From an uncultured Flaviramulus sp. (GTDB lineage Bacteria > Bacteroidota > Bacteroidia > Flavobacteriales > Flavobacteriaceae): a stretch of DNA of 64,000 nucleotides. Made by a program: the position numbers and the translations under genes. Within the stretch, counting starts at the first letter, position 1. Each line of letters starts with the position of its first letter. Shown one piece after another: positions 29,705 through 45,166 of this stretch. Where the stretch lies: positions 1 through 64,000 of the forward strand of contig CANLXL010000014.1 of the NCBI GenBank assembly GCA_947495125.1, given 5' to 3'. The notes beneath the pieces were generated by a model. That model did no database searches and was not told where the DNA came from. It was given only the letters and a program-made list of their open reading frames with translations.

Positions 29705-29790
29705 AACCTAATCCTCTAACACCGCTTCAAGCGTCTTCTGACGTTGAATTTTCCCGGACTCCGTTTCAACAAACTGACTACAGAGATAAA
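29674..29790. repeat. 117-bp direct repeat, copy 2
   Basis: identical to 27486-27602. Confidence 0.9.
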
Positions 29791-30781
29791 CATGCTTAGG
29801 TGTTTCATAAGCGGTCAACTCTGAAAAAACTGCCTTATCCAACGCCTTTGAATCCGTTTCAACCACCAAAACGACTTTTTCTCCAAGCGTCTCATCGGGT
29901 ACCGAACTTATAAAAAATCGGTCGGCAATCTTATTTTGAAGTTTGCTTTCAATCTGTTCAGGAAACAATTTAATACCTCCGGAATTGATCACATTATCAT
30001 AACGGCCCAGCCATTCGAATTCAGTTTCAGAATGTAATTTTACCATGTCGTTGGTAACAATGGGTTTATCAGAGAGTTGTGAGGCTTCAATAACTAAACA
30101 CCCTCTGTTATCTTGTGAAATCCCAACATTTGGAAGTGTTTGAAATAATGAATCGGCATTTTGATCAATGGTTTTATTTAACTGCTTAAGTGCAATATGG
30201 GTCACGGTTTCGGTCATCCCATAAGTTTCATAAACCGCAGTGTTCAGTTCCTGAAGATCTTGTTTGAGTCCATTGGATACCGGAGCGCCCCCAACAATAA
30301 TAGTTTTAATATTTCCACAATGTTTTAAGGAATTTTGGAGTTGCATGGGTACCATTGCTGCAAAATCATAATGCTTCCTTTTACTAAAAACGGGTTGCGA
30401 GGTCGGTTCTACAAGGTCTATTTCCAGGCCCAGAATAATGGCTCTGATCAGCATCATTTTACCCGCTATATAATGTGGCGGTAAACAGTGTAATGCCCTA
30501 TCCCCGGGTTTCAGTTTAAAGAAATCTCCGGTGGCAATGGCCGAATGCACCATGGCTTGCTTTTTAATCCTGATTCTTTTAGGTTGCCCGGTAGAACCCG
30601 AAGTATTTACTTGGATTGCATCATTATCATCGAGCCAATCCAATAAAAAATTGCCTATGCCCTGCTCATACGATAACCCTTCCTTAACAAAGCTATAAGC
30701 GACTTCCATAAGGTCTTCATAGGAATAATGAATGCCGTTTAACTTAAATCTTAAATGTACTTTGTTGTAATGTGGTGCCAT
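29708..30781 (-). CDS. menE: AMP-binding protein, o-succinylbenzoate-CoA ligase-like
   Basis: NTSGSTGQPKRIRI, YGMTETVTHIA, INSGGIKLFPEQIE; menC/menA/menB on the same strand further on. Confidence 0.82.
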   Translation of the reverse strand: MAPHYNKVHLRFKLNGIHYSYEDLMEVAYSFVKEGLSYEQGIGNFLLDWLDDNDAIQVNTSGSTGQPKRIRIKKQAMVHSAIATGDFFKLKPGDRALHCLPPHYIAGKMMLIRAIILGLEIDLVEPTSQPVFSKRKHYDFAAMVPMQLQNSLKHCGNIKTIIVGGAPVSNGLKQDLQELNTAVYETYGMTETVTHIALKQLNKTIDQNADSLFQTLPNVGISQDNRGCLVIEASQLSDKPIVTNDMVKLHSETEFEWLGRYDNVINSGGIKLFPEQIESKLQNKIADRFFISSVPDETLGEKVVLVVETDSKALDKAVFSELTAYETPKHVYLCSQFVETESGKIQRQKTLEAVLED

Positions 30782-30865: not shown

Positions 30866-31846
30866 CTAGTTTTCAGTCCCCATATCTAACTGGAAATTGG
30901 TGACCACAATACCGTGATCTGACGGATAAGGAATCTCTTCGTTTTTTATGCTTAACACATCACCTAAAAATGCGTTAAATGATGTGGATTTAACGGCCTC
31001 CAATCCGCCTCCTTTATAAAAAATGTAGTCTATGCGATGTGAATCTTCTTTTCCTTTGGTGTTCCAGGTAATCCCGGGATGGGTTAAGGGGTTTGGGTTT
31101 AATGAGCGATACGAATCTTTTAAACCCAAATTTTCAAGCACTTTTGTCGTGTACCAGGGGACTACCAAACCGTTGTGAATAGCTTTAGTTTCCGCTCCCC
31201 AATCCAAATGAGAGGGAGCATTAAAGTCGCCTCCGATAATGATGGGTATTTTTTCGCTTTCGATATCCTCCGTATACGTTTTCAAATAGGGTAATACCTT
31301 TTGAATCATTTCATACTTTTTACCTGAACGTTCCCAAACGAGTAATTCCTCAACGGTTTTGCCTATCTTATGGGGTTCGTCATCCCATGGCAAATAATGA
31401 AACCAGTTCGATAAAAATCGGATACGCTGATTATTAATTATAATGTCCCGACCTCCAAGATAGAAAGGAAACTCCGTATCGATACGTTCTCCAAATGGAT
31501 ATTTCGACATGATGGACAGATTAATGTGTTTATTATCCGGAGCGGTACCTTCGGGGGCGATCAAATGAAAATGATAACCTAGTGCATCAGCAATATTCTT
31601 ACCGGATCCGTATGTTTCCACCATAAGAATGACATCCGGGTTTATAGCCCGAATAATATCTATCGCATGCCGTTGCCCATTAGGAATATCGTTGGCACCA
31701 TGTAAAATATTCCAGGCCATCACCTTAAAGGTATAAGGTGGTGCTTCGTTTTGGCAGTCCCCAAAAACAGGTGTCAGAACAAGCAGTAAGTAAAAGCGAA
31801 TATTAAAAAGCATACCAATAAATGGTATTTTAGAGATTAGCTTCAT
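30866..31846 (-). CDS. secreted endonuclease/exonuclease/phosphatase (EEP) family protein
   Basis: MAWNILHG, IPIIIGGDFNAPSHLDWG, RIDYIFYKGG, SDHGIVV; start moved from 31897. Confidence 0.88.
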   Translation of the reverse strand: MKLISKIPFIGMLFNIRFYLLLVLTPVFGDCQNEAPPYTFKVMAWNILHGANDIPNGQRHAIDIIRAINPDVILMVETYGSGKNIADALGYHFHLIAPEGTAPDNKHINLSIMSKYPFGERIDTEFPFYLGGRDIIINNQRIRFLSNWFHYLPWDDEPHKIGKTVEELLVWERSGKKYEMIQKVLPYLKTYTEDIESEKIPIIIGGDFNAPSHLDWGAETKAIHNGLVVPWYTTKVLENLGLKDSYRSLNPNPLTHPGITWNTKGKEDSHRIDYIFYKGGGLEAVKSTSFNAFLGDVLSIKNEEIPYPSDHGIVVTNFQLDMGTEN

Positions 31847-31850
31847 TAGA

Positions 31851-33077
31851 TTATTTTTTAACGACCCAGGTATTAACATGATTATACTTACCCTCAATTA
31901 CCAGTTTATAAAAATCTGAAGGTATATGACTCACATCTATTTTCAGGCTTCCATTCTTAACTTTGGTTTCTCCTAATACGATATAATTGTCATCCTTACC
32001 TTTTTTAAATTGATTTTCTGTGGCTGCCCATACCTTTACTTTTCCTTTTTTATGAATCACGTCCCAGGTCAGCTGTAAACTATTATTCTTTAAAACGGCC
32101 CGTGCATTTGCTAATGATAACTGTTCATTCAAGGGCACCCCATCAATCTCCCAAAGTTGTTCTTTTCGAGGTTTAATATCTAATGTGTGCAACATGCTTG
32201 GCATAATATCCACAATGCCCGGTTCATAACCTTTAAAATAGCCATTTAAATTTTTGGCGTTGGTAACGATCCATGTGAGGCGTTCTCTTTCACTTTGTCC
32301 GCCATGATGATGCCCCGATTTTTCATCTCTACCATGATCTGTTGTAATGTATATTTCCCAATCTTCATTAAACCGCTCTCGACGATATTCAATGGCGTCC
32401 CAGATACGACCGACTTGTTTATCGGCCACTTTTATAGCGTTAAAAAACTCATTGCTATCGCCATATTTATGTCCCATATCATCCGTATACTCCAAATATA
32501 CCCAGGACAAATCAGGTGCCTTGTCTTTAATACAGTCTACCGCTTTCGCAACAACATGCTCATCGATCTTATGAATGTACAGTCGATCGTCATCATGGGG
32601 AAATCTAATGGTATCAAGCTCATAACCATCAAAATGATAGTCTAATTTAATATTACCGGTTTCTGGGAGACCTTCACCAATAAGCTTTGTGCGGTTGTCC
32701 AACCATGTTGAGAAAATGGCTGTTTTTAATTCCGGACGTTGGGCTTTTGCCATTCTGAAAATCGTCCAATAGTTATAATTGGGTGCCTTAATATCATTTC
32801 CCCAAACATTATGCTTGTTCACCCAGGTTCCTGTAAGCAAGCTGTTATAGCCTACGGCTGAAATGGTCGGAGTCTGTGAATACCCGTCTTTTTCGCCACC
32901 AACATAGGCTCGGGTATACCCGCCTTCATTTGCGATTTGATCTAAATTTGGGGTTTCCACCTTTTCAATGACATCGGCAGAGATTCCATCAACAATGATA
33001 AAAAGGACTTTGGTGTTTTTGTTTTGACCGTAGCCTAAGTAACTTATCAATAAGAAACAATAAATAATGTATTTCAT
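31851..33077 (-). CDS. alkaline phosphatase / nucleotide pyrophosphatase-phosphodiesterase family protein
   Basis: LFIIVDGISADVIEKVETPNLDQIANEGG, TPTISAVGYNSLLTG, YLEYTDDMGHKYG, ITTDHGRD. Confidence 0.9.
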   Translation of the reverse strand: MKYIIYCFLLISYLGYGQNKNTKVLFIIVDGISADVIEKVETPNLDQIANEGGYTRAYVGGEKDGYSQTPTISAVGYNSLLTGTWVNKHNVWGNDIKAPNYNYWTIFRMAKAQRPELKTAIFSTWLDNRTKLIGEGLPETGNIKLDYHFDGYELDTIRFPHDDDRLYIHKIDEHVVAKAVDCIKDKAPDLSWVYLEYTDDMGHKYGDSNEFFNAIKVADKQVGRIWDAIEYRRERFNEDWEIYITTDHGRDEKSGHHHGGQSERERLTWIVTNAKNLNGYFKGYEPGIVDIMPSMLHTLDIKPRKEQLWEIDGVPLNEQLSLANARAVLKNNSLQLTWDVIHKKGKVKVWAATENQFKKGKDDNYIVLGETKVKNGSLKIDVSHIPSDFYKLVIEGKYNHVNTWVVKK

Positions 33078-33088
33078 GGGATATTTTT

Positions 33089-34177
33089 TTAGTCTATTTT
33101 AAATGTTGCCAGTAACCCTTTGTGGTCTGATGGCCATTTTCCCTGAGGTAACAAAAACTTATCTAGCAAGGTATTATCCTCAACACCCTGACCGTTTACA
33201 ATACTTCCTGAAGGCCCCACAATAATAATATCTTCTAAAGTTAAACGAAAATCCTTATTATAATAGATAAAATCGATACGATCCCGATCGTCGGCTTCCG
33301 GAGTCCAAACCAGTTTAGATAGTTCAACATCCTTGTTGTAGGCCGCCCAGGTATGCCCGGGGTACGATACCGGATCCGGATATTTTGTTCGATAGGCATC
33401 AACATAGTCATGGGCTTCTAAAATTTTACTGCAATGCCAGGGAACCACCATACCGTTATGATCAAATAGGTCTTTGGTCTCCAGAGTCCAATCCAAATGT
33501 GAAGGTTCATTAAAATCACCGGCTAAAAGGACCATGTTCCCTTTCTCCTTTTCAATAGCTGCATCTTTTACGAAGAGTTCAATGGCTTCATCCCTTGCAG
33601 AGGCTTTGTTTTGTGCCAAAATTGCAGATAAATCCGAAATCGGTTCAGGCAACTTCTCCCAGGTAATTCCATCGTAACCTCTAGGTAAATAACAAGCATA
33701 ATGGGTATAATCCAAATGGGATGAATACACCGCTAATTGCGCAGATTCATTTAATTTTATGATGCATTTGGTTAGTGAGGTCGAATGTATTGTCGGTCTT
33801 GAAACAATTGGATACTTAGACAGAATGATAGGCGACTTTCCCGAATTAAAGGAGTGGTAATCCCCGCCTCTTTTCTTCAATTCATTAGTAATTTTAGTAC
33901 TAAAAATGATATTGTTAGAATTGCGAATTTCACATAACATCACCACATCGGCTTCCGTTTGAAGAATAATATCAACTATGGCATCAAACCCACCATCAAC
34001 AGATTCTCCCTGATGCCAGGTATTTAAAGATAGTACCTTTAATATCCCTTTGAAAGTCACTTCTGAAGCCTCGGGATCTTCATTACCTGCTTCTTGGTTT
34101 TTATTATGTGCTGAAGTACAACCATAACTCATTCCAAGTGTTATAAAAAAGAGGCCTATTACTATATTTTTCATCAT
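33089..34177 (-). CDS. EEP family lipoprotein, paralog of 30866-31846
   Basis: LSLNTWHQGE, LLAGDFNEPSHLDWT, DRIDFIYYNKD, WPSDHKGLLATF; lipobox MSYGCTSA. Confidence 0.88.
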   Translation of the reverse strand: MMKNIVIGLFFITLGMSYGCTSAHNKNQEAGNEDPEASEVTFKGILKVLSLNTWHQGESVDGGFDAIVDIILQTEADVVMLCEIRNSNNIIFSTKITNELKKRGGDYHSFNSGKSPIILSKYPIVSRPTIHSTSLTKCIIKLNESAQLAVYSSHLDYTHYACYLPRGYDGITWEKLPEPISDLSAILAQNKASARDEAIELFVKDAAIEKEKGNMVLLAGDFNEPSHLDWTLETKDLFDHNGMVVPWHCSKILEAHDYVDAYRTKYPDPVSYPGHTWAAYNKDVELSKLVWTPEADDRDRIDFIYYNKDFRLTLEDIIIVGPSGSIVNGQGVEDNTLLDKFLLPQGKWPSDHKGLLATFKID

Positions 34178-34241
34178 GTATTTTTTAAAAAAGGGAGACT
34201 TTCATCTCCCCTAAACTAAACTCAAACTAATTAAAGCACGA

Positions 34242-35084
34242 CTATTGTGCAGTAAATGTCGTATTTGCGGTATACCAATAAATCCATGGACTTGTAGTAC
34301 CCAGATTTAAGTAATACACATCGATACCCACGGTGATTTTCCCGGTACATACATCGTAAGTGCCCTCGCCGTTTTGTCGGAACTGATACTCATAGCCTCC
34401 ATTATCGGTACCGGCCGCATAGTCATCGAAACTAGCTTCTCCGATAGTCGCTCCCGGAACCACCGGTGTTAAAGTAATTCCTAATTCTGCATTAGGAAAT
34501 GATCCGTAACCGATCAGATCACCGTTTAAGATCACCACATCTCCACTAACGCTTCCCGAAACGGTATTACCTCCGTATGATGCATTAATATTTGAAGAAT
34601 CAAATACATCTGCTATCGACTCGGTACATTCATTATCTACAATTTTTAAGGCAAAGGTTTTATTGGCTTGGAGAATTTTACCAACACCAATGTCAATATT
34701 CGGATTGCTTACACTTTCAATGCCAATCTCCAACATTTTATCCGTAACATCGTTCACTACCAAATTATCAATAATCGTGATCTCAAAGGGTTCAGATTTT
34801 ATCTCTCCGGCCTTAAAAGTAATCAGTTTATTAACCACGGAATAATCTGTTCCTTCCTGAGCATTACCGGCAATATTAAGATTTACCGAAAAATCTTCAC
34901 TTAACACACTGCCATCATATCTTAAAGCGATGGTATAGGTTTCTCCGTTTTCCAAAATTTCATCGCTTTCATCTATAAAGGAAACAAACTTGAATTCTTC
35001 GAAATTATAAAGCTGGGGTTCTTCTTCACAGCCCAAACTTATTAAGATGATGGCTGTATATAGTATTGTTTTTAAAATTTTCAT
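34242..35084 (-). CDS. surface lipoprotein with Calx-beta-like N-terminal region (SusE-position protein)
   Basis: lipobox LISLGCEEEP; directly downstream of susD. Confidence 0.7.
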   Translation of the reverse strand: MKILKTILYTAIILISLGCEEEPQLYNFEEFKFVSFIDESDEILENGETYTIALRYDGSVLSEDFSVNLNIAGNAQEGTDYSVVNKLITFKAGEIKSEPFEITIIDNLVVNDVTDKMLEIGIESVSNPNIDIGVGKILQANKTFALKIVDNECTESIADVFDSSNINASYGGNTVSGSVSGDVVILNGDLIGYGSFPNAELGITLTPVVPGATIGEASFDDYAAGTDNGGYEYQFRQNGEGTYDVCTGKITVGIDVYYLNLGTTSPWIYWYTANTTFTAQ

Positions 35085-35111
35085 TGATTTAAATTTTTGA
35101 TTTTAAACGAA

Positions 35112-36896
35112 TTACCATCCCATGATCTGTACAAGTTGTGGGTTTAAAGCGATCTGATGTGCCGGTATCGGACGATAATAATACTTTGGTTCTTCAAAAG
35201 TTCTTTCATCGACATTAGCGACCATATATCCCGAGGTTCCATCAGTCAAATAAATACTCGCTGCGGAGTCACCAAAAGCCCCTGCTTTATAGTATATGAG
35301 GTTGACACCCAAGGCATTTTGCTCTTTGGGAGAAGGAATATCCTCACTACTGGCAATAATGCTGATATCTTCGACGCCATCTCCTGTCATATCGTATTTG
35401 CCCAAACCTGGGAAGTACATCCCAACAGGGTTTTTCTCTAAGACTTTCCCGGCATACCAGCGATGAATGTCGTATAGGCGGAAAGATTCCAGGGCCAGCT
35501 CCGATCGACGTTCCCGTCGTATCTCGTAAATAACTCCTTTATTAGTTCCTGAAACATTAGGATAATTGCTTTCAATTACGGGATCGATGTCGGCATTAGC
35601 TGAAACCATGTTCAGATCCGGCATACCTACCCTGGCTCTTAATTTATTAATGCTAATATCAAGGTCACTTTGTGTTAGTACTCCCAATTCCGCCTGGGCT
35701 TCAGCATAAATTAATAAGGTTTCCGCATAGCGCATAACGATCAAATCGTTACCCTGATTGTCATTCGTACTGGAGTTATTATAACCTTTGGTTTGAAAGT
35801 AGCCGGTAAAATTCCTGTTAAACTCCGGAATGTAGGGAGCAGGCTCGTTTCGTCGTACCCAACCCGGGTAAACAAAGGTTTGAGACATTCGCGGATCCCT
35901 ATTCTGAAATTCCTGAACATAAGTATAGGTATCCGATCCCGGTTGATCGCTGAACCTGGTACCATCCTGCATCAGATAATTATTCATCAATGATTTGGTC
36001 GCACTTTGCTCGTAGTCTCCAAAAACGGTACTATTGCCACTGGTTTTTTCTTTTTCTACATCATAGATATTGACTAAAATCGCTTCCGGATTGCTTGTTT
36101 GATCATCAGCATGAAACAAGGTCGCATAATCTGAATTAGGACTACCCGTGTTGTATATACTAAAGTTTCCTGAATCGATGAGTTGCTTTGCGGCATTTGC
36201 CGACATTTGCAAAAAAGTATTGGCTGTACTTTCTAAGCCCAATTCAGGGTGATATTTCCGATAAGTCCCTTCGTGCAGAGCCATTCTGGCCAATAAATGT
36301 AATGCTGCCCATTTGCTAACTTTTTCAGTGCCGGCAGCTTCTTCATGTATATGTAGCGCCGCAAACTGAATGTCTTTAAAAACGCTGTCGACCACCATGG
36401 CTCGCGAATCCCTTGGTTTATAAAGGTCTTCATCATTGGCACCAAGAGTTCTTGAATAATATGGAACATCCGAATAGCGGCGTACCTTTCCATAGTAAAA
36501 ATTCGCTCTATGGAATCTGGCAATACCTTCATAATGCTTTTTAGTCGCATCATCGATACTGGCTTTATCGAAGTTTTCCAGAAAAAAATTAATCTGTCTT
36601 AAACGGCCCCAACTCCATCCGGAACCAATATTCTCAGCACTTGGAGAGCCAATCAGTATATTTTTAAGCTCCACGGCTCCTGTGGTAGCCACATCATCTG
36701 TGGCCTGATCGCCTAAAAATGTACCATACCCGGCAACGGAATGCAGTCCGTCGATATACAGTTGCAAATCACTTGCCGTATTAAAAAAGTTTTCTGCTGA
36801 AATCTCATCCTGAGGGACGGTATCCAAAAAATCATCATTACAAGCAGTAAACACTGTTAACGCTAATAATACTAGTATTTTATCTGTTATTTTCAT
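35112..36896 (-). CDS. RagB/SusD family lipoprotein
   Basis: lipobox TACNDDFLDTVPQDEIS, RYAETLLIYAEAQAELG, IRRERRSELALESFRLYDIHRW. Confidence 0.96.
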   Translation of the reverse strand: MKITDKILVLLALTVFTACNDDFLDTVPQDEISAENFFNTASDLQLYIDGLHSVAGYGTFLGDQATDDVATTGAVELKNILIGSPSAENIGSGWSWGRLRQINFFLENFDKASIDDATKKHYEGIARFHRANFYYGKVRRYSDVPYYSRTLGANDEDLYKPRDSRAMVVDSVFKDIQFAALHIHEEAAGTEKVSKWAALHLLARMALHEGTYRKYHPELGLESTANTFLQMSANAAKQLIDSGNFSIYNTGSPNSDYATLFHADDQTSNPEAILVNIYDVEKEKTSGNSTVFGDYEQSATKSLMNNYLMQDGTRFSDQPGSDTYTYVQEFQNRDPRMSQTFVYPGWVRRNEPAPYIPEFNRNFTGYFQTKGYNNSSTNDNQGNDLIVMRYAETLLIYAEAQAELGVLTQSDLDISINKLRARVGMPDLNMVSANADIDPVIESNYPNVSGTNKGVIYEIRRERRSELALESFRLYDIHRWYAGKVLEKNPVGMYFPGLGKYDMTGDGVEDISIIASSEDIPSPKEQNALGVNLIYYKAGAFGDSAASIYLTDGTSGYMVANVDERTFEEPKYYYRPIPAHQIALNPQLVQIMGW

Positions 36897-36917
36897 TGTG
36901 TTTTTCTTTAAATTAAT

Positions 36918-39900
36918 TTAGAACGTAACATTCATACCAACGGATAGTTTACGATGAAAAGGGTATGCAAAACCTCTGTTCGCCGTAGCTTCAGGATCGA
37001 GAAATTGTTTGATGGATGACCATTCGGCAACATTTTCACCGGTAACAAAAACACGTAAATTGGAAATTCTCATTTTATCCAATAACTTATCCGGTAAAGA
37101 ATAGCCTATTGAAATGTTCTTCAGTCTTAAATAAGCAGCGCTTTTCAAATATTTAGTTTGAGAAATGTCCAGGCCGGCTCCAAAATTATTGTCGGCTAAC
37201 CAGGACTGTAATACCGGGAATTCTGAGTCGGTGTTCGCATCGGCCAATCCGGCATCGATATAAGATTGCGAGTGCTGTGCTCTTAACGCATCACTATCTC
37301 CGGTAGCTCGATAAAAATCTAACAAGTGAGGATAAACATTCGCATAAGGTTGTTGATAAGGGCCCCAATATAAATAATACCTTGGGTAATAATCCCGTTT
37401 ACCAATACCTTGCACAAAACAGCTAACGTCAAAGCCTTTCCATGCCGCATTCATATTAAATCCGAATTGGTATCTCGGTTGACTATTACCTATTATTTTT
37501 AAATCTTTAGGGTCTAATGCCGATTGTCCGCGTTCTATTTTGGCATCACCATCCTGATCGATATATTTTGGCCACCCGGGAACCACCGCTATGGCGCCCC
37601 AGGGAACGATTGCAGACTGGTCCAGAGTTGCAATCTCGGCTTCATCTTTAAAGAACCCATCACTTTCAAGTCCCCATATTTCTCCGATGTCCTGGCCTTC
37701 TCTCCATTGTGAAAATAACTGGCCTTCATTATCAAAACGGGTGATCTTTGTTTTGTTATCCCATACTCTTGCGGCGAGTTCTAAATTAAATGGGCTTCCT
37801 CCCAGCTCGAACTGATCTTTATACCCTAGCGTGAACTCCCATCCTTTTGTTTGTAAATCGGCAGCATTCTGGATTGGAGGCGCTGTTCCCAATACGGCGG
37901 GAAGTTCTTTACTGGGCACTAACATATCCTTAGTGTCCCTGGTAAACATTTCAAAAGTAAGATTGAACATGCTATTAAAGAAACTCGCATCAACACCAAT
38001 ATTTGAAGAAATAACACGTTCCCATGTATAATTATTGGGGTCTACACCTAAGCCCGGTCCGTAAACAACTTTGGGATAATCACCATCAATTAAATAACCG
38101 GACTCGCCTTGTCCCAATGAATTGATATAGCCATAATTGCCAACACTTTGATTTCCTAGAGACCCATAAGAATATCGGAACTTTAGTTGATTCATAACAT
38201 TGGTAACCGATTCACCTAAATCCTTGCTGACCAACCATGCAACGGACATGCCCGGGAAAAAACCATAACGATCTTGTTGCGGAAACCTTGATGAACCATC
38301 GTACCGTGTGTTCACTTCAAAAATGTAGCGCTCATTATAAATATAATTAAGCCTGTTAAACAGTCCTGTAACCGCCCAATCGGAATAGTTATACCCTACT
38401 TCCTGATCTCCGGTAGCCAAAGATAAGTAAGGTAAATCTCGTGATATGAGTCCGTTTCTTTGGGCTGAAAACCAGTTGAACTCATTGGTTTCCTTATTAA
38501 AACCTGTGATCGCGCTGATATAATGCTTACCTATGGTCTTGGTATAAGTTCCGTAGATATTAAAGACATTATAGGTGTTTATAGATTGAGTTTCATAGGC
38601 CCAGTCATTAACGTTGATATCTCTGAATGAGTTCGGTCCATCACTTACCCGATAACTGGTGCGATCGGAATGATAGCGGTTAAAATCCTTTTTGAAGGTG
38701 TGCTCTGCTGTAATCGTTAAATCTTTATTCAATAAATAAAAATGCAAACGGTTTGTGGTTTGAATCCCCGTTTGTTTATTACGTTGCTTTCCGCCATCCA
38801 ACATTTCTGCCGCAGCCAGTCCGGCGGGATTATCGGCCCAGGAACCATCCGGGTTTTTAACCACTTCTGTTGGTCGTAAATTATAGACATTGGTTATGCT
38901 ATACCTCGGATTCTTTCGACTTGATAATGTCAAGAAGGTATTATTTTCAAAATCGAACCAGGAACTGGGTTCTATGGTGATTTTGGATCTTAAAGTGTTA
39001 CGTTCCCAGTTGTCGGTAACCAGTCTGTTCAATCCGTTTTCCAAGGTATGACTTGCTGAAATGAAATAACTAATTCCCTGATCGACAATGGTTTCATCAC
39101 CAGCTTTTATAGCGCCAAACGCTCGTTTCCCGCTAAAGGAAATATTATGATTTTGAGAAAATGAATATTTATTAAAGAAGTACTCATTCCAATTGGTATC
39201 ACCCATATATTGGTACTTATTTGGGTTATTGGGGTCCAATCGCACGCTGGGAACAGAAGGATCTTCCGATCTTGCACGTGCCCAGGCATACCAGTCGTCA
39301 TCATAGCTGACATAATTCCAGGGGGTGTTGCTCGTGGCAATATCCAACAATCTTGAAAAGATATACGGGTCTGTTATAGGTTCGGGCGTTACGGTAGGTG
39401 TTCCCCAAATAAAGGTATTCGAATATTGAATTTTATTTCTACCGCCTGTTTTTGTGGTTACCAGTACAACACCAAAAGCGGCTCTTGCGCCATAGATTGC
39501 GGCGGAAGATGCGTCTTTTAATATGGATATGGACGCTATATCGTTAGGATTCATGCGGGTCAGGTCTCCGGAAGATGATGGGACCCCATCTATCAATATT
39601 AATGGAGATCCTCCGTTTAAAGAGGTTATCCCGCGAATATTAACATTGGCTGTACCTCCGGGAGCACCATTTCCAAACGTTATGTTTAAATTTGAAACGG
39701 CGCCTTGAAGGCCCTGAGATACATTGGCGATAGGGCGGTCTTCGATGATATCCATATCAACGACCTCCACGGCACCACTTAGGTTTACCTTCTTCTGTGT
39801 ACCATAACCTACCACCACGACTTCATCCAGGGTACTTGAATCGACTTCCAGATAAATAGTCAGTTCGTCCTTGTTACCTGCTTGTACTTCTTTAGTCTGA

Positions 39901-40202
39901 TAGCCAACGTACGATACAACCAAGATGTCGTTTCCCGATATTATCTTCATAGAAAATCTACCATCAAAGTCGGATGACGCTCCGGTAGTTGTCCCTTTTA
40001 ACAATATGGTGGCTCCGGGAAGTGGTTGTTCCGTCTCGGCATCTAAGACAGTTCCCGTAATTATTTTTTCTTGAGCAAACGCTTGATGATTCATAGCAAA
40101 TAGTAGTATAAACACCAATAAGCAACCTGCATATTGATTTTTACTTACTACGCAACCTCTCACCTTTTTGCTTACAAGAATCAAAAAGTTTAATGTTTTC
40201 AT
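36918..40202 (-). CDS. SusC/RagA family TonB-linked outer membrane protein
   Basis: carboxypeptidase-like repeat (ITGTVLDAETEQPLPGATILLKGT), VVVGYGTQKK plug, beta-barrel. Confidence 0.96.
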   Translation of the reverse strand: MKTLNFLILVSKKVRGCVVSKNQYAGCLLVFILLFAMNHQAFAQEKIITGTVLDAETEQPLPGATILLKGTTTGASSDFDGRFSMKIISGNDILVVSYVGYQTKEVQAGNKDELTIYLEVDSSTLDEVVVVGYGTQKKVNLSGAVEVVDMDIIEDRPIANVSQGLQGAVSNLNITFGNGAPGGTANVNIRGITSLNGGSPLILIDGVPSSSGDLTRMNPNDIASISILKDASSAAIYGARAAFGVVLVTTKTGGRNKIQYSNTFIWGTPTVTPEPITDPYIFSRLLDIATSNTPWNYVSYDDDWYAWARARSEDPSVPSVRLDPNNPNKYQYMGDTNWNEYFFNKYSFSQNHNISFSGKRAFGAIKAGDETIVDQGISYFISASHTLENGLNRLVTDNWERNTLRSKITIEPSSWFDFENNTFLTLSSRKNPRYSITNVYNLRPTEVVKNPDGSWADNPAGLAAAEMLDGGKQRNKQTGIQTTNRLHFYLLNKDLTITAEHTFKKDFNRYHSDRTSYRVSDGPNSFRDINVNDWAYETQSINTYNVFNIYGTYTKTIGKHYISAITGFNKETNEFNWFSAQRNGLISRDLPYLSLATGDQEVGYNYSDWAVTGLFNRLNYIYNERYIFEVNTRYDGSSRFPQQDRYGFFPGMSVAWLVSKDLGESVTNVMNQLKFRYSYGSLGNQSVGNYGYINSLGQGESGYLIDGDYPKVVYGPGLGVDPNNYTWERVISSNIGVDASFFNSMFNLTFEMFTRDTKDMLVPSKELPAVLGTAPPIQNAADLQTKGWEFTLGYKDQFELGGSPFNLELAARVWDNKTKITRFDNEGQLFSQWREGQDIGEIWGLESDGFFKDEAEIATLDQSAIVPWGAIAVVPGWPKYIDQDGDAKIERGQSALDPKDLKIIGNSQPRYQFGFNMNAAWKGFDVSCFVQGIGKRDYYPRYYLYWGPYQQPYANVYPHLLDFYRATGDSDALRAQHSQSYIDAGLADANTDSEFPVLQSWLADNNFGAGLDISQTKYLKSAAYLRLKNISIGYSLPDKLLDKMRISNLRVFVTGENVAEWSSIKQFLDPEATANRGFAYPFHRKLSVGMNVTF

Positions 40203-40265
40203 AGGCTTTTGTTTAGTTATTAGTTTTTGATGATTTAAAATGTTGGGCTAAAGTAAAAAAATAAT

Positions 40266-40285
40266 TTGATTGAACAACCAATCAA
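40266..40285. promoter_or_regulatory. candidate TetR operator
   Basis: perfect palindrome TTGATTG-aacaac-CAATCAA between divergent susC and tetR-family genes. Confidence 0.65.
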
Positions 40286-40337: not shown

Positions 40338-40934
40338 ATGGGTAGAAAAAGCTTAAAAACAGAAAGACAAAAAGAAATCATAAAAGGCTTCTATGAGGTA
40401 GCAAAGACTGAGGGTTTAGAGAATACCTCGGTTGCAAAAGTTGCCAAATACATGGGTATTAACACAAGCTTAATACTCCACTATTTCGACTCCAAAGACG
40501 AATTGATATTCGGTCTTATCAATTATATTTTGGAAAGTTACAAGTCGCTTTATACTACAAACAATATTGAAAACAGCCATGTTAAATTAGAGATTACCAT
40601 GGATAATTTATTCTCCAGAGATTGGAACAATCTTATTGACGATGGTGTATTCTATAGCTGTTTTACGCTCATATTCAGAGATAAAAATATTAAGGAAGCT
40701 TTTAAGGACCTCCATGATTCTTTAAGGGATTATTTAGCCGATGTTATTGCTGAAGCAAAAAAAGAAAACATCGTTGAGGTTGAAGACCCCAAAGAAACTG
40801 CAGAACTTATCTTCGTATTGGTGGAAGGTGCCTATTACTACCTATCACTTTTTGAAACCAACGATCCTACCTATGTCGATAAAGTAGAACGCTATAAAAA
40901 GGCTGCTATCGATATGTTAAACTTCAAAGTTTGA
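40338..40934 (+). CDS. TetR/AcrR family transcriptional regulator
   Basis: N-terminal HTH NTSVAKVAKYMGINTSLILHYFDSKDELIFGL. Confidence 0.92.
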   Translation: MGRKSLKTERQKEIIKGFYEVAKTEGLENTSVAKVAKYMGINTSLILHYFDSKDELIFGLINYILESYKSLYTTNNIENSHVKLEITMDNLFSRDWNNLIDDGVFYSCFTLIFRDKNIKEAFKDLHDSLRDYLADVIAEAKKENIVEVEDPKETAELIFVLVEGAYYYLSLFETNDPTYVDKVERYKKAAIDMLNFKV

Positions 40935-41085
40935 TAATTTATCTTTCCGTTTTTAATATAAAACTAAAAGGAGTTGCCCCGTTCAGAAATCTTTCGGAAA
41001 CCATTAGGATTATTAAGATAATCTGTCTAATGATGGAAAGGTCTCGTGAATCATTTTTTTCGAGCTTAAACCTGTTCTCGATATA

Positions 41086-41104
41086 TTCCGATGAAAAATC
41101 GGAA
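41086..41104. repeat. TTCCGAT-gaaaa-ATCGGAA hairpin
   Basis: perfect 7-bp stem in intergenic DNA. Confidence 0.5.
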
Positions 41105-41154
41105 CACTCGAACCGACATTTATCTAATGAAAAAAATCCAAGTTCAAAAAGGGC

Positions 41155-41403
41155 TTACTTTCTTTTTTTAAGGATTGCTATGATAGCCGTTATCCCAATA
41201 CACATCCAAACCAAATTGGTAAACAAATTAGGTCGGTCTTGAGAACTATAGGCACTGGCGATGAGGCATACGGCACCTATCACATTCATGAGTTGATAGG
41301 TGACGCTATTAGACTTTAGTTTATTAATACTTAACAAGAAATAGGAAATTAAATATGATGCAGACCCTACCCATCCAATAATTTCATAATAGCTCATTAG
41401 CAA
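41155..41403 (-). CDS. small membrane protein (CBU_0592-like)
   Basis: three TM segments, YEIIGWVGSASYLISYFLLS. Confidence 0.7.
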   Translation of the reverse strand: MLMSYYEIIGWVGSASYLISYFLLSINKLKSNSVTYQLMNVIGAVCLIASAYSSQDRPNLFTNLVWMCIGITAIIAILKKRK

Positions 41404-41410
41404 GAATTTA

Positions 41411-42367
41411 TTATTCTAAAATTTTATAATCTTCTTTTGGGGGCTCAACAACTTGTCCAAATAACTTATCCTTCCAATTGGTCCATTTATATTTTTTAGA
41501 TAGTATTAAAAGTAATATGGGAAAAACAACAAATACAGGAACAAAGATCTCAGTCAAGGCCATTTCCGAGGGGTCTGACATATCTTTTAAAACGGAGTGG
41601 GTTTGAAAAGCCGTCCAATCTGCAGTAACCAATAAAGCGGTAAATAAGTTGTTCGCCGCGTGAAAGCCCAGGGCCAATTCCATGCCTTCATCCATTAAGG
41701 TTAGTATCCCTAAGAACAACCCTGTACCTATATAATAAACCATGATGACGTATCCCAATTTATCCACTTCAGGATTTGCAATATGTAACAAACCGAAAAC
41801 TAAAGAGGTTATTATTAACGGAATCCATTTGTTTTTTACAACAACGCCTATCCCCTGCATTAAATATCCTCTGAACAAATACTCTTCAAAACTGGTTTGC
41901 AAGGGCACTAAAACAATAGCAATTACGCATAAAATGATAAAAGGTACCGGCTTAAAATTCCAAACATAATCTTCAGGAGTCAAATAGTAATCTAAAAGCA
42001 CAAAACTGCTTGATAATACCCCCCATAAAATAAACACAAACCAAAATCGTTTCCAATCAATATGCTTTCTGGTTGTTGTTAATTGGGTTAAAGATTGCTT
42101 ATGCAAAAATTTAATAACCAGTAATAAACCTACCAACCCAATGGCAAATGACAAGAGCATAAGAAAAAGGTTTAAGTTAGGCTCTAAGAGCGACATCATT
42201 TGAGTTTCATCTAAACCGGTTAACCCGTCTTCGGTATTAAAGGCTTTAATCATAACCGCAGCAGTAAAGGGTATTTGCCCAATAACTACAGCAATAATTA
42301 CTATTAAAAGTCCAACTAAATAGCGCCACCAATCGTGTAACACATTAAATGCCTGAGCTATATACAT
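41411..42367 (-). CDS. CPBP family intramembrane metalloprotease
   Basis: TSFEEYLFRGYLMQG, FHAANN, multi-TM. Confidence 0.9.
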   Translation of the reverse strand: MYIAQAFNVLHDWWRYLVGLLIVIIAVVIGQIPFTAAVMIKAFNTEDGLTGLDETQMMSLLEPNLNLFLMLLSFAIGLVGLLLVIKFLHKQSLTQLTTTRKHIDWKRFWFVFILWGVLSSSFVLLDYYLTPEDYVWNFKPVPFIILCVIAIVLVPLQTSFEEYLFRGYLMQGIGVVVKNKWIPLIITSLVFGLLHIANPEVDKLGYVIMVYYIGTGLFLGILTLMDEGMELALGFHAANNLFTALLVTADWTAFQTHSVLKDMSDPSEMALTEIFVPVFVVFPILLLILSKKYKWTNWKDKLFGQVVEPPKEDYKILE

Positions 42368-42371
42368 ATTT

Positions 42372-43406
42372 CTATAAATTAAATGTCCATGATTTTAAAT
42401 TATCGTATTGCAATGTACCATTTTTTACTTGTAACGGGCTGGCAAAATTATTAGTAAACAATGCACCGGTTCCCAAACCCTGTGGTAAATTGCTTTTTTT
42501 ACCATAGGTATATTGTGCAATAGCATTAAGTCCTACATTACTTTCTAAAGCACTTGTAATCCACCAGTCTACCTCAAGTTTTTCTGCAATATCAATCCAG
42601 AAATCACTACCCCTAAAACCGCCCACTAAACTCGGTTTTAAAATAATGTACTGTGGATTTATCATTTGTAGCAATTCCTTCTTTTTTGTTACAGAGAAAA
42701 CACCAATTAATTCTTCATCCAAAGCAATATCCAACGGGGTATTCTCACATAATTGAGCCATATCTTCAATGTGTCCCTGACGGATAGGCTGTTCTATAGA
42801 ATGTAGATCGAGCTCTGATAATCGTTTTAGTTTTTCTAAAGCTTCAGAAACCACAAAAGCGCCATTAGCATCAACACGTATTTCAATATCCTTTGAAGTG
42901 AATTCCTCACGGATGGATTTTATCAGATCTAATTCCGTTTGAAAATCAATGGCTCCAATCTTCATTTTGATACAATCAAACCCTTTAGCGATCTTATCTT
43001 TTATCTGCCGATTCATAAATGCCTTATCCCCCATCCATATCAATCCGTTTATAGGAATTGAATCTAAGCTTTGAGTAAATTTTGAAGGAAATAATTCAAA
43101 CGTACTTTCGGATGCTATCGATTTGAAAGCCATTTCCAGACCAAATTGAATACTAGGAAATTCTATCAACGCTTCCAATAAGACGTCCATGCCTAAATAT
43201 ATGTTACTGCAAACCCATTTGAGCTTTTCTTCATAATCAGGTCGGTCATCTATAGATAATCCTCTAAAAAGTCCGCATTCACCAACACCTCTTTTAGCTT
43301 CGGTCTCTAAAACCAAAAACCAGGTTTCTTTGGTTTTTAGAACCCCTCGTGATGTCCCACTGGCCTGCTTAAAATTCAGAATGTACTTACGATACGTTGC
43401 CGTCAT
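42372..43406 (-). CDS. menC: o-succinylbenzoate synthase
   Basis: enolase superfamily: CIKMKIG, RVDANGAF, PQYIILKPSLVGG; next to menA and menB. Confidence 0.88.
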   Translation of the reverse strand: MTATYRKYILNFKQASGTSRGVLKTKETWFLVLETEAKRGVGECGLFRGLSIDDRPDYEEKLKWVCSNIYLGMDVLLEALIEFPSIQFGLEMAFKSIASESTFELFPSKFTQSLDSIPINGLIWMGDKAFMNRQIKDKIAKGFDCIKMKIGAIDFQTELDLIKSIREEFTSKDIEIRVDANGAFVVSEALEKLKRLSELDLHSIEQPIRQGHIEDMAQLCENTPLDIALDEELIGVFSVTKKKELLQMINPQYIILKPSLVGGFRGSDFWIDIAEKLEVDWWITSALESNVGLNAIAQYTYGKKSNLPQGLGTGALFTNNFASPLQVKNGTLQYDNLKSWTFNL

Positions 43407-43541
43407 AGTTGTGTCTCAGAAATGCTTAATCGACTAAACCGTCTTAATGGAAAATATAATGCAAAGGAATAAATGTCGAATGATTCTTGTAAAGTTTGGC
43501 TAATTTCTTTTAGCAACAAACAGTCTTATAAATACGCTAAG

Positions 43542-44219
43542 TTATAACTCTAAACTCTCACCAATTTCCAACAGCATTAGGTCTTTGCCCTTTTCAAAGA
43601 ATTTGCGCTTTGCTTCTTCATGGTCAATTTCAATATAACCAAAAGTATCGAAATGATACCCCAGAACCTTTTCACATTCTACAAAATCGCTTGCCAAAAT
43701 AGCATCATCAACGCCCATGGTAAAATTGTCACCAATAGGTAAAATAGCGAGATCCAATTTGGTTTGCAATGGAATCAATTTCATATCGAAGGTTAGCGCC
43801 GTATCACCGGCAATATAAACGTTTTTGTGTTCGCCTTCAATGATAAATCCGCCAGGCTGGCCGCCATAGCTTCCATCGGGAAACGACGAGGTGTGAATCG
43901 CATTTACATATTTTATAGTCCCAAACTCAAAATCCCATTGACCACCATGATTCATAGGATGCCCTTCAAAACCAAGGTTTCCATAATACGTTACAATTTC
44001 ATAATTCGAAATAATTACAGCACCCGTCCGTTTTGCAATAGCCTCAACATCCAAGATATGATCTTGATGGGCGTGCGTAACCAATATATAATCAGCCTTA
44101 AGGGTTTCAATATCAATACCTGCAGCCTTGGGGTTTCCTGAAATGAAGGGGTCTACAAGAATATTCGTGTCTCCTATTTGTAACCCCAAACTAGCATGAC
44201 CATAAAATGTGATTTTCAT
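43542..44219 (-). CDS. metal-dependent hydrolase, UPF0173 / metallo-beta-lactamase fold
   Basis: THAHQDHILD, IAGDTALTFD, MGVDDA. Confidence 0.92.
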   Translation of the reverse strand: MKITFYGHASLGLQIGDTNILVDPFISGNPKAAGIDIETLKADYILVTHAHQDHILDVEAIAKRTGAVIISNYEIVTYYGNLGFEGHPMNHGGQWDFEFGTIKYVNAIHTSSFPDGSYGGQPGGFIIEGEHKNVYIAGDTALTFDMKLIPLQTKLDLAILPIGDNFTMGVDDAILASDFVECEKVLGYHFDTFGYIEIDHEEAKRKFFEKGKDLMLLEIGESLEL

Positions 44220-44263
44220 TTTTTTTAAAATTGAATTTATTCAACAGAAAAATACAAAAAATT

Positions 44264-45166
44264 CTATAACAAATGTCCTACCCCCATAAGGATTGCTAAA
44301 AGTACTGTGGTTAAGGCTAATTTTTTTAATTCCGGATCTAACTGTTCAGACTCCGTATTTTTATTAACTCTAGACAAGTGCAAACCCAATGGTATATAGG
44401 TAATCGTATATATCAAATTGTAAGGTGATGTATAATAGAGCACACCAAATAGCGCAGATAAAACGATAGCTAAGCCTATTAGGACATTATGATATATTTT
44501 GGCATTGCCTTTTCCCAATCTCACTGCTAAGGTTATTTTATCTGATTTCGCGTCTGATAAGATATCCCGCATATTATTCAAGTTGAGCACACCTGCGCTT
44601 AATAACCCTATAGTAAAAGCCGGTAAGAATACAACGTGATCAATTGTTTTTGCATAAAGGACATAACAGCCCGCTACACTTATTAAACCAAAAAAAACAA
44701 ATACGAAGACATCCCCTAAACCGCGATAGCCATAAGCATTATTACCCATCGTGTAGCGCAGAGCCGCAACAACGCATACAATACCCAAGAAAAAGAAAAG
44801 CAAGGTCAATAAAAAATGTCGCACTCCAAATGCAGAGAATATGAGTAGAAATGCTAAAGCTATCGAAATTAAAATATTAATACGAATCGCATTGAACATC
44901 TCTTCAGGTAAAATACTCCCGCTTTGTATCGCTCTTTCGGGACCAATTCTATCGTTATTATCGGTGCCTTTAACGCCATCACCATAATCATTGGCGAGGT
45001 TAGAAAGAATCTGCAAACTTAAGGTTGTCAAAATGGCCAGAACAAATATTTTCCATTGAAAGCAGCCATTGTATTCTGCTAAAAATGAGGCTAAAATAAT
45101 CCCGGAAACGGATAAAGGCAAGGTGCGTAAACGCATGGTGGAAATCCAAAGAGATACTTTTTTCAT
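44264..45166 (-). CDS. menA: 1,4-dihydroxy-2-naphthoate polyprenyltransferase
   Basis: LANDYGDGVKGTDNNDRIGPERAIQSG, NNMRDILSDAKSDKITLAVRLG. Confidence 0.94.
   Translation of the reverse strand: MKKVSLWISTMRLRTLPLSVSGIILASFLAEYNGCFQWKIFVLAILTTLSLQILSNLANDYGDGVKGTDNNDRIGPERAIQSGSILPEEMFNAIRINILISIALAFLLIFSAFGVRHFLLTLLFFFLGIVCVVAALRYTMGNNAYGYRGLGDVFVFVFFGLISVAGCYVLYAKTIDHVVFLPAFTIGLLSAGVLNLNNMRDILSDAKSDKITLAVRLGKGNAKIYHNVLIGLAIVLSALFGVLYYTSPYNLIYTITYIPLGLHLSRVNKNTESEQLDPELKKLALTTVLLAILMGVGHLL

Follow-up and report, generated by a model that had tools for sequence, protein, structure and literature searches.

A 64,000-nucleotide window from an uncultured Flaviramulus sp. (Flavobacteriaceae; positions 1 to 64,000 of contig CANLXL010000014.1, assembly GCA_947495125.1) carries a SusC/SusD transporter pair together with three exported phosphoesterase-superfamily enzymes and a divergent TetR-family regulator. 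Judged from its genes, the system appears to be a locally repressed outer-membrane locus for phosphodiester utilization, similar to the PusCD loci of Flavobacterium johnsoniae and to polysaccharide utilization loci (PULs). Its most likely substrates would be choline-bearing phosphodiesters, e.g., phospholipid-derived glycerophosphocholine, a statement that we hold as a whole with about even confidence. That the locus serves phosphoester utilization in general is highly probable, as all exported hydrolases belong to phosphoesterase superfamilies with intact catalytic residues, no carbohydrate-active gene is present, and the extra genes found in relatives again encode phosphoesterases. For choline headgroups as the substrate, our preferred reading, belief and doubt are evenly balanced; it draws on gene neighborhoods in related genomes and on an incomplete residue match to the choline-specific ENPP6. 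The usual view of SusCD pairs is that they import glycans, and where glycosidases are missing a substrate is difficult to name. The cassette described here offers one such class a testable substrate, regulator, and operator. The genes present, their conserved grouping, the operator, the en bloc insertion, and the catalytic residues are all read directly from the DNA.

Gene content and insertion site

Six minus-strand genes follow one another as SusC, SusD, lipoprotein, EEP-A, NPP, EEP-B, where EEP denotes the endonuclease/exonuclease/phosphatase superfamily. A preceding sequence-only reading had described this co-directional block at 30866–40202, and open frames were found at exactly these positions, with their families matched by Pfam and NCBIfam. 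It had missed the divergent TetR gene (40338–40934) and the palindrome in front of it (40266–40285). The EEP-B frame had been opened at a TTG at 31897; alignment to relatives and the lipobox VFGDC instead indicate an ATG at ~31813. The features are:

40338–40934, plus strand: divergent TetR-family regulator, 198 aa, with BetI-like helix-turn-helix and TetR_C_37 ligand domain (PF18665, 142.6 bits)
40266–40285, no strand assigned: putative palindromic operator TTGATTGGTTGTTCAATCAA (minus-strand reading), between tetR and susC
40248–40255, minus strand: candidate -7-like susC promoter element TACTTTAG, beside the operator
36918–40202, minus strand: SusC/RagA TonB-linked outer-membrane transporter, 1094 aa (TIGR04056, 768 bits, cut-off 368; TIGR04057 signature)
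35112–36896, minus strand: SusD surface lipoprotein, 594 aa, lipobox TAC-NDD (PF07980, 168 bits; PF14322)
34242–35084, minus strand: surface lipoprotein with Calx-beta-like domain, 280 aa (PF03160, 27.5 bits, barely above cut-off)
33089–34177, minus strand: EEP-A, EEP-superfamily lipoprotein, 362 aa (PF03372, E 5.5e-14)
31851–33077, minus strand: NPP-type phosphodiesterase of the alkaline phosphatase superfamily, 408 aa, with signal peptide (PF01663, E 4.1e-20)
30866–31813 (start approximate), minus strand: EEP-B, second EEP-superfamily lipoprotein (PF03372, E 1.7e-19)

Inspection of the N-termini by eye marks SusD, the Calx-beta protein, and both EEPs as lipoproteins and shows an ordinary signal peptide on NPP. 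SusC is 62–88% identical to its counterparts in Wocania, Aestuariivivens, and Arenibacter loci. A domain scan of all six genes found no glycosidase, lyase, or sulfatase, as the earlier reading had stated, and no hidden glycan-active domain in the hydrolases. The SusC/SusD pair is present, but none of the six genes encodes a carbohydrate-active enzyme; by gene content the locus is not a PUL. A 103-aa open reading frame next to tetR (40931–41242) has no Pfam match and was rejected as spurious.

A same-genus genome encodes MenA, a metallo-beta-lactamase-fold protein, MenC, a CPBP protease, and MenE in a co-directional run, with a gap of only 9 bases between CPBP and MenE. These two genes are also adjacent in four other genomes (G018, G014, G010, and G015), and two other genes lie between them in a fifth (G006). 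In the window, a block of ~10 kb, from EEP-B through the TetR gene, sits exactly between CPBP and MenE. Since the two neighbors are contiguous in the same-genus genome, the TetR gene and the six block genes appear to form a single, discrete inserted cassette. The Aestuariivivens locus (L006) and one further locus (L101, genome G400) again have a CPBP homolog on the TetR side and, after EEP-B, a 378-aa gene that is MenE-like by eye. The cassette splits a menaquinone gene run, with MenE at 29708–30781 and the CPBP protease, MenC, the metallo-beta-lactamase-fold protein, and the UbiA-family MenA at 41411–45166.

Conservation with a local regulator

Loci were collected from NPP and TetR searches, and the sample is hence biased towards loci having one or the other. 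Starting from NPP, 80 named loci were gathered, plus another 20 in family genomes for which wider stretches were used; 97 loci have an NPP frame. The same TetR is found in 32 of these, every one of which carries SusC and SusD (32/32, with two SusD families), compared with about 20 of the 65 TetR-less loci. The expectation of the sequence-only reading that relatives keep NPP alongside SusCD is thus borne out for the TetR-carrying loci; the EEP part of the proposed neighborhood is restricted to flavobacterial loci. Cytophagal and chitinophagal loci instead harbor phosphoesterases of the calcineurin-like or e(P4) kind, or NPP by itself. EEP genes occur mostly in TetR loci (9/11), and the Calx-beta lipoprotein family is found in nine loci, all of them with TetR. 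Recurrent extra genes in related loci encode a calcineurin-like enzyme with a twin-arginine-like start and an e(P4)-family 5'-nucleotidase. A separate class-wide search with TetR added three genomes at 49–51% identity, in each of which SusCD is accompanied by NPP, by a calcineurin-like gene, or by the two together, and more distant TetRs (34–42% identity) had no SusCD and phosphoesterase neighbors. As NPP is a lone gene in many genomes, NPP alone is not diagnostic of the system. Collectively, the block is more than a chance grouping: its components co-occur across Bacteroidota families, and the cassette inserts cleanly.

Several variants of the layout were observed. In one family clade (L110, L112–L118) the order is TetR / NPP-SusC-SusD, which places NPP directly behind the operator; no further phosphoesterase is labeled nearby. 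Several related loci (L167:9447–9779, L168:10362–10649, and L110:12153–12455) encode a small membrane protein of ~100 aa with a GWxGxxxxxxxYxLLS-like motif adjoining the TetR gene; the one copy scanned has no Pfam match, and the window lacks this gene. At L119 (G235:C22, ~60.7–61.5 kb), an NPP relative contains three in-frame TAA stops and has seemingly decayed.

The TetR gene is present in a single copy in the window genome. Its putative operator lies beside the candidate promoter element TACTTTAG, which we take to resemble the Bacteroidota TAnnTTTG box, a position that suits repression of susC. Intergenic regions carry a palindrome of the form TTGAWTGNNNNTTCAATYWA with no more than three mismatches in 32 of 33 cases, shuffled regions mostly showing four to six. 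A sigma-70 promoter scan performed no better than the shuffled level. When the window genome was scanned, no second clear palindrome of this form and no distant regulon were found; with the palindrome clear only at this locus, control is seemingly local. That a local TetR operator is conserved points to the substrate or a product as the inducer. The regulator shares with BetI its TetR family membership, the BetI-like N-terminal part, and half-sites of the ATTGA/TCAAT type, and betB-betA adjoin its gene in three relatives, with no bet neighbors in the window. It differs from BetI in its sub-threshold score, its TetR_C_37 ligand domain, and susCD as its presumed main target.

Catalytic residues and candidate substrates

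Both hydrolase families retain their active sites. Alignment of 18 EEP sequences revealed invariant N52, E83, D221, N223, D302, D351, and H352, so the superfamily (PF03372) catalytic set of Asn, Glu, Asp-x-Asn, Asp, and Asp-His is present throughout. The predicted EEP-A structure (mean predicted local distance difference test score, pLDDT, 82) shows the expected superfamily fold. A PDB sequence search with each EEP singly gave no match. The fold comparison that the earlier reading had proposed for these enzymes returned neighbors at superfamily level only, and it therefore does not separate nuclease from sphingomyelinase-like activity.

For NPP, alignment to Xac NPP and residue conservation identify the nucleophile Ser73, together with Tyr77, Tyr194, and Glu196, and metal ligands D30, D199, H203, D247, H248, and probably H258, a two-metal set of the phosphatase type. 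Ser73 and Tyr77 occur in 97/97 sequences and Ala74 in 96/97. The predicted structure (pLDDT 91.5) shows the expected superfamily fold; a beta-rich C-terminal domain (residues ~310–406) follows the catalytic domain. Fold searches returned mostly S1 sulfatases as neighbors. Identity as an S1 formylglycine sulfatase was ruled out, because the nucleophile context TISAVGYNSLLTG lacks C/S-x-P-x-R.

A known enzyme for comparison is ENPP6, a choline-specific glycerophosphodiester phosphodiesterase of the alkaline phosphatase superfamily (PMC4757880). Among ENPPs, a Ser nucleophile is reported for ENPP6 only, where the Tyr at +4 accounts for the serine (PMC4757880). Ser73, Tyr77, Tyr194, and Glu196 of the window NPP correspond to ENPP6 Ser71, Tyr75, Tyr188, and Glu190, and in both proteins Tyr and Glu stand at -5 and -3 of a zinc Asp. 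The window NPP differs in its low overall identity, a shorter gap to the last invariant His, and the C-terminal beta-rich domain, and it is not classed as ENPP6.

A second line of evidence comes from gene neighborhoods. In three genera of the family, betB (betaine-aldehyde dehydrogenase), betA (choline dehydrogenase), and an SSS symporter gene directly follow this TetR; in one of them (G248), gene order and N-termini are as in the other two, with BetA above cut-off. The window genome holds only weak relatives (≤27% identity) of this symporter. In one bet-carrying genome, a BCCT transporter gene additionally closes the phosphoesterase operon. BetA scores above the curated cut-off in 3 of 398 family genomes, which are the three with bet-linked TetRs and all belong to the 20 NPP-positive genomes. 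The chance of such a 3/3 overlap within 20/398 is ~1 in 9,000, with the three TetRs sharing one clade.

Several observations weigh against choline. Because the bet-linked TetRs group in a single clade, their link to bet genes may have arisen only once, and outside the family BetA is not linked to this TetR in a wider-class check on short contigs. The window genome itself lacks BetA (best match 4e-4) and a BCCT transporter. BetI is the best NCBIfam match of the regulator, yet its 45.5 bits lie far under the curated cut-off of 201.3, and a bet-linked relative reaches 60.8 bits; by this measure the regulator does not class as BetI. The operator spacing is unlike that of the published R. pomeroyi BetI box (ATTGACG*CGTCAAT), the half-sites being alike. 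In NPP, Tyr72 following the ENPP6 nucleophile is replaced by Ala74, and equivalents of Tyr188 and Glu190 are not peculiar to ENPP6. Finally, e(P4) enzymes carry the annotation 5'-nucleotidase, a better match for nucleotides.

This annotation is one of the points in favor of nucleic-acid or nucleotide use, a rather unlikely alternative in our view, in which surface EEP nucleases would cut DNA or RNA, SusCD would import oligonucleotides, NPP would act as an exophosphodiesterase, and e(P4) and calcineurin-like enzymes would yield nucleosides and phosphate. It fits with EEP relatives in the PDB being exonuclease III and TDP2, and with NPP relatives including snake-venom phosphodiesterase and nucleotide pyrophosphatases. 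However, the position following the nucleophile is a near-invariant Ala here, where the aligned Xac NPP has Phe91, presumably at a base-stacking position. No nucleoside transport or salvage gene was recognized in the inspected loci, and the betBA and BCCT linkage would be left without explanation.

We likewise judge it unlikely that the locus serves general low-phosphate scavenging of mixed phosphodiesters, ethanolamine, glycerol, and inositol headgroups included, with TetR sensing another ligand. The shared architecture with PUSI/PUSII, SusCD plus phosphodiesterases/phosphatases and no carbohydrate-active enzymes (PMC8115612), supports this explanation, as does the absence of choline oxidation genes from the window genome. 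The PUS loci, though, are induced by phosphate depletion, whereas a local TetR with a conserved operator accompanies every complete locus here, suggesting control by substrate or product, and the bet genes in three genera also speak against it. A glycan, teichoic-acid, or phosphoglycan locus whose phosphoesterases strip phosphate decorations is very improbable: SusCD systems are mostly glycan importers and the structural neighbors of NPP include many S1 carbohydrate sulfatases, but the block has no carbohydrate-active gene, NPP combines a two-metal phosphatase-type ligand set with the lack of a sulfatase motif, and what related loci add, as far as recognized, are phosphoesterase and choline genes. 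The general idea of a phosphodiester SusCD locus put forward by the sequence-only reading is well supported by gene content and conservation, and its broad substrate list can be narrowed, the regulator and bet genes favoring choline headgroups over teichoic acid or phosphoglycan.

Proposed mechanism and comparison with known systems

Under the choline reading, for which cell location, order of steps, ligand, and substrate are our inference, EEP lipoproteins at the cell envelope would start substrate breakdown, and TonB-energized SusC/SusD would take the soluble phosphodiester across the outer membrane. Periplasmic NPP would then cut the diester, and phosphomonoesterases of the calcineurin-like or e(P4) type, which lie within the locus in some relatives and outside the window block, would free phosphate and headgroup. 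The divergent TetR would repress its own gene and susC from the single palindrome by the susC promoter until a product, probably choline or a closely similar compound, lifts the repression. More tentatively, the cassette may represent a widespread and hitherto undescribed Bacteroidota nutrient system, a lipid-headgroup counterpart of the polysaccharide utilization locus, in which SusCD imports choline-bearing phosphodiesters, a choline-sensing TetR acts through its own operator, and the system is tied to choline-to-betaine oxidation in some genera. If the choline reading is true, it would add a Bacteroidota route for recycling phosphorus and choline from phospholipid headgroups.

With Sus-type PULs the window locus shares SusC, SusD, a surface lipoprotein, exported hydrolases, and a local regulator in a single unit; it differs in that its hydrolases all belong to phosphoesterase superfamilies, with no carbohydrate-active enzyme. 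A phosphorus-scavenging analog of the PUL is already in print as PusCD (PMC8115612). Among the papers searched, none tied SusD to choline phosphodiesters. PUSI and PUSII of F. johnsoniae combine SusCD with phosphodiesterases/phosphatases, pf00149 and pf16670 enzymes in PUSI and PhoA in PUSII, and lipid headgroups and nucleic acids are their proposed substrates (PMC8115612). The window locus likewise pairs SusC/SusD with phosphoesterases and lacks carbohydrate-active enzymes. Induction by phosphate depletion was demonstrated for PUSI/PUSII. The window locus is set apart by enzymes of the EEP and NPP types, by its divergently encoded TetR and the conserved operator, and by the bet genes of its relatives. 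What is new here, for a locus of the known PusCD kind, is a substrate lead, choline.

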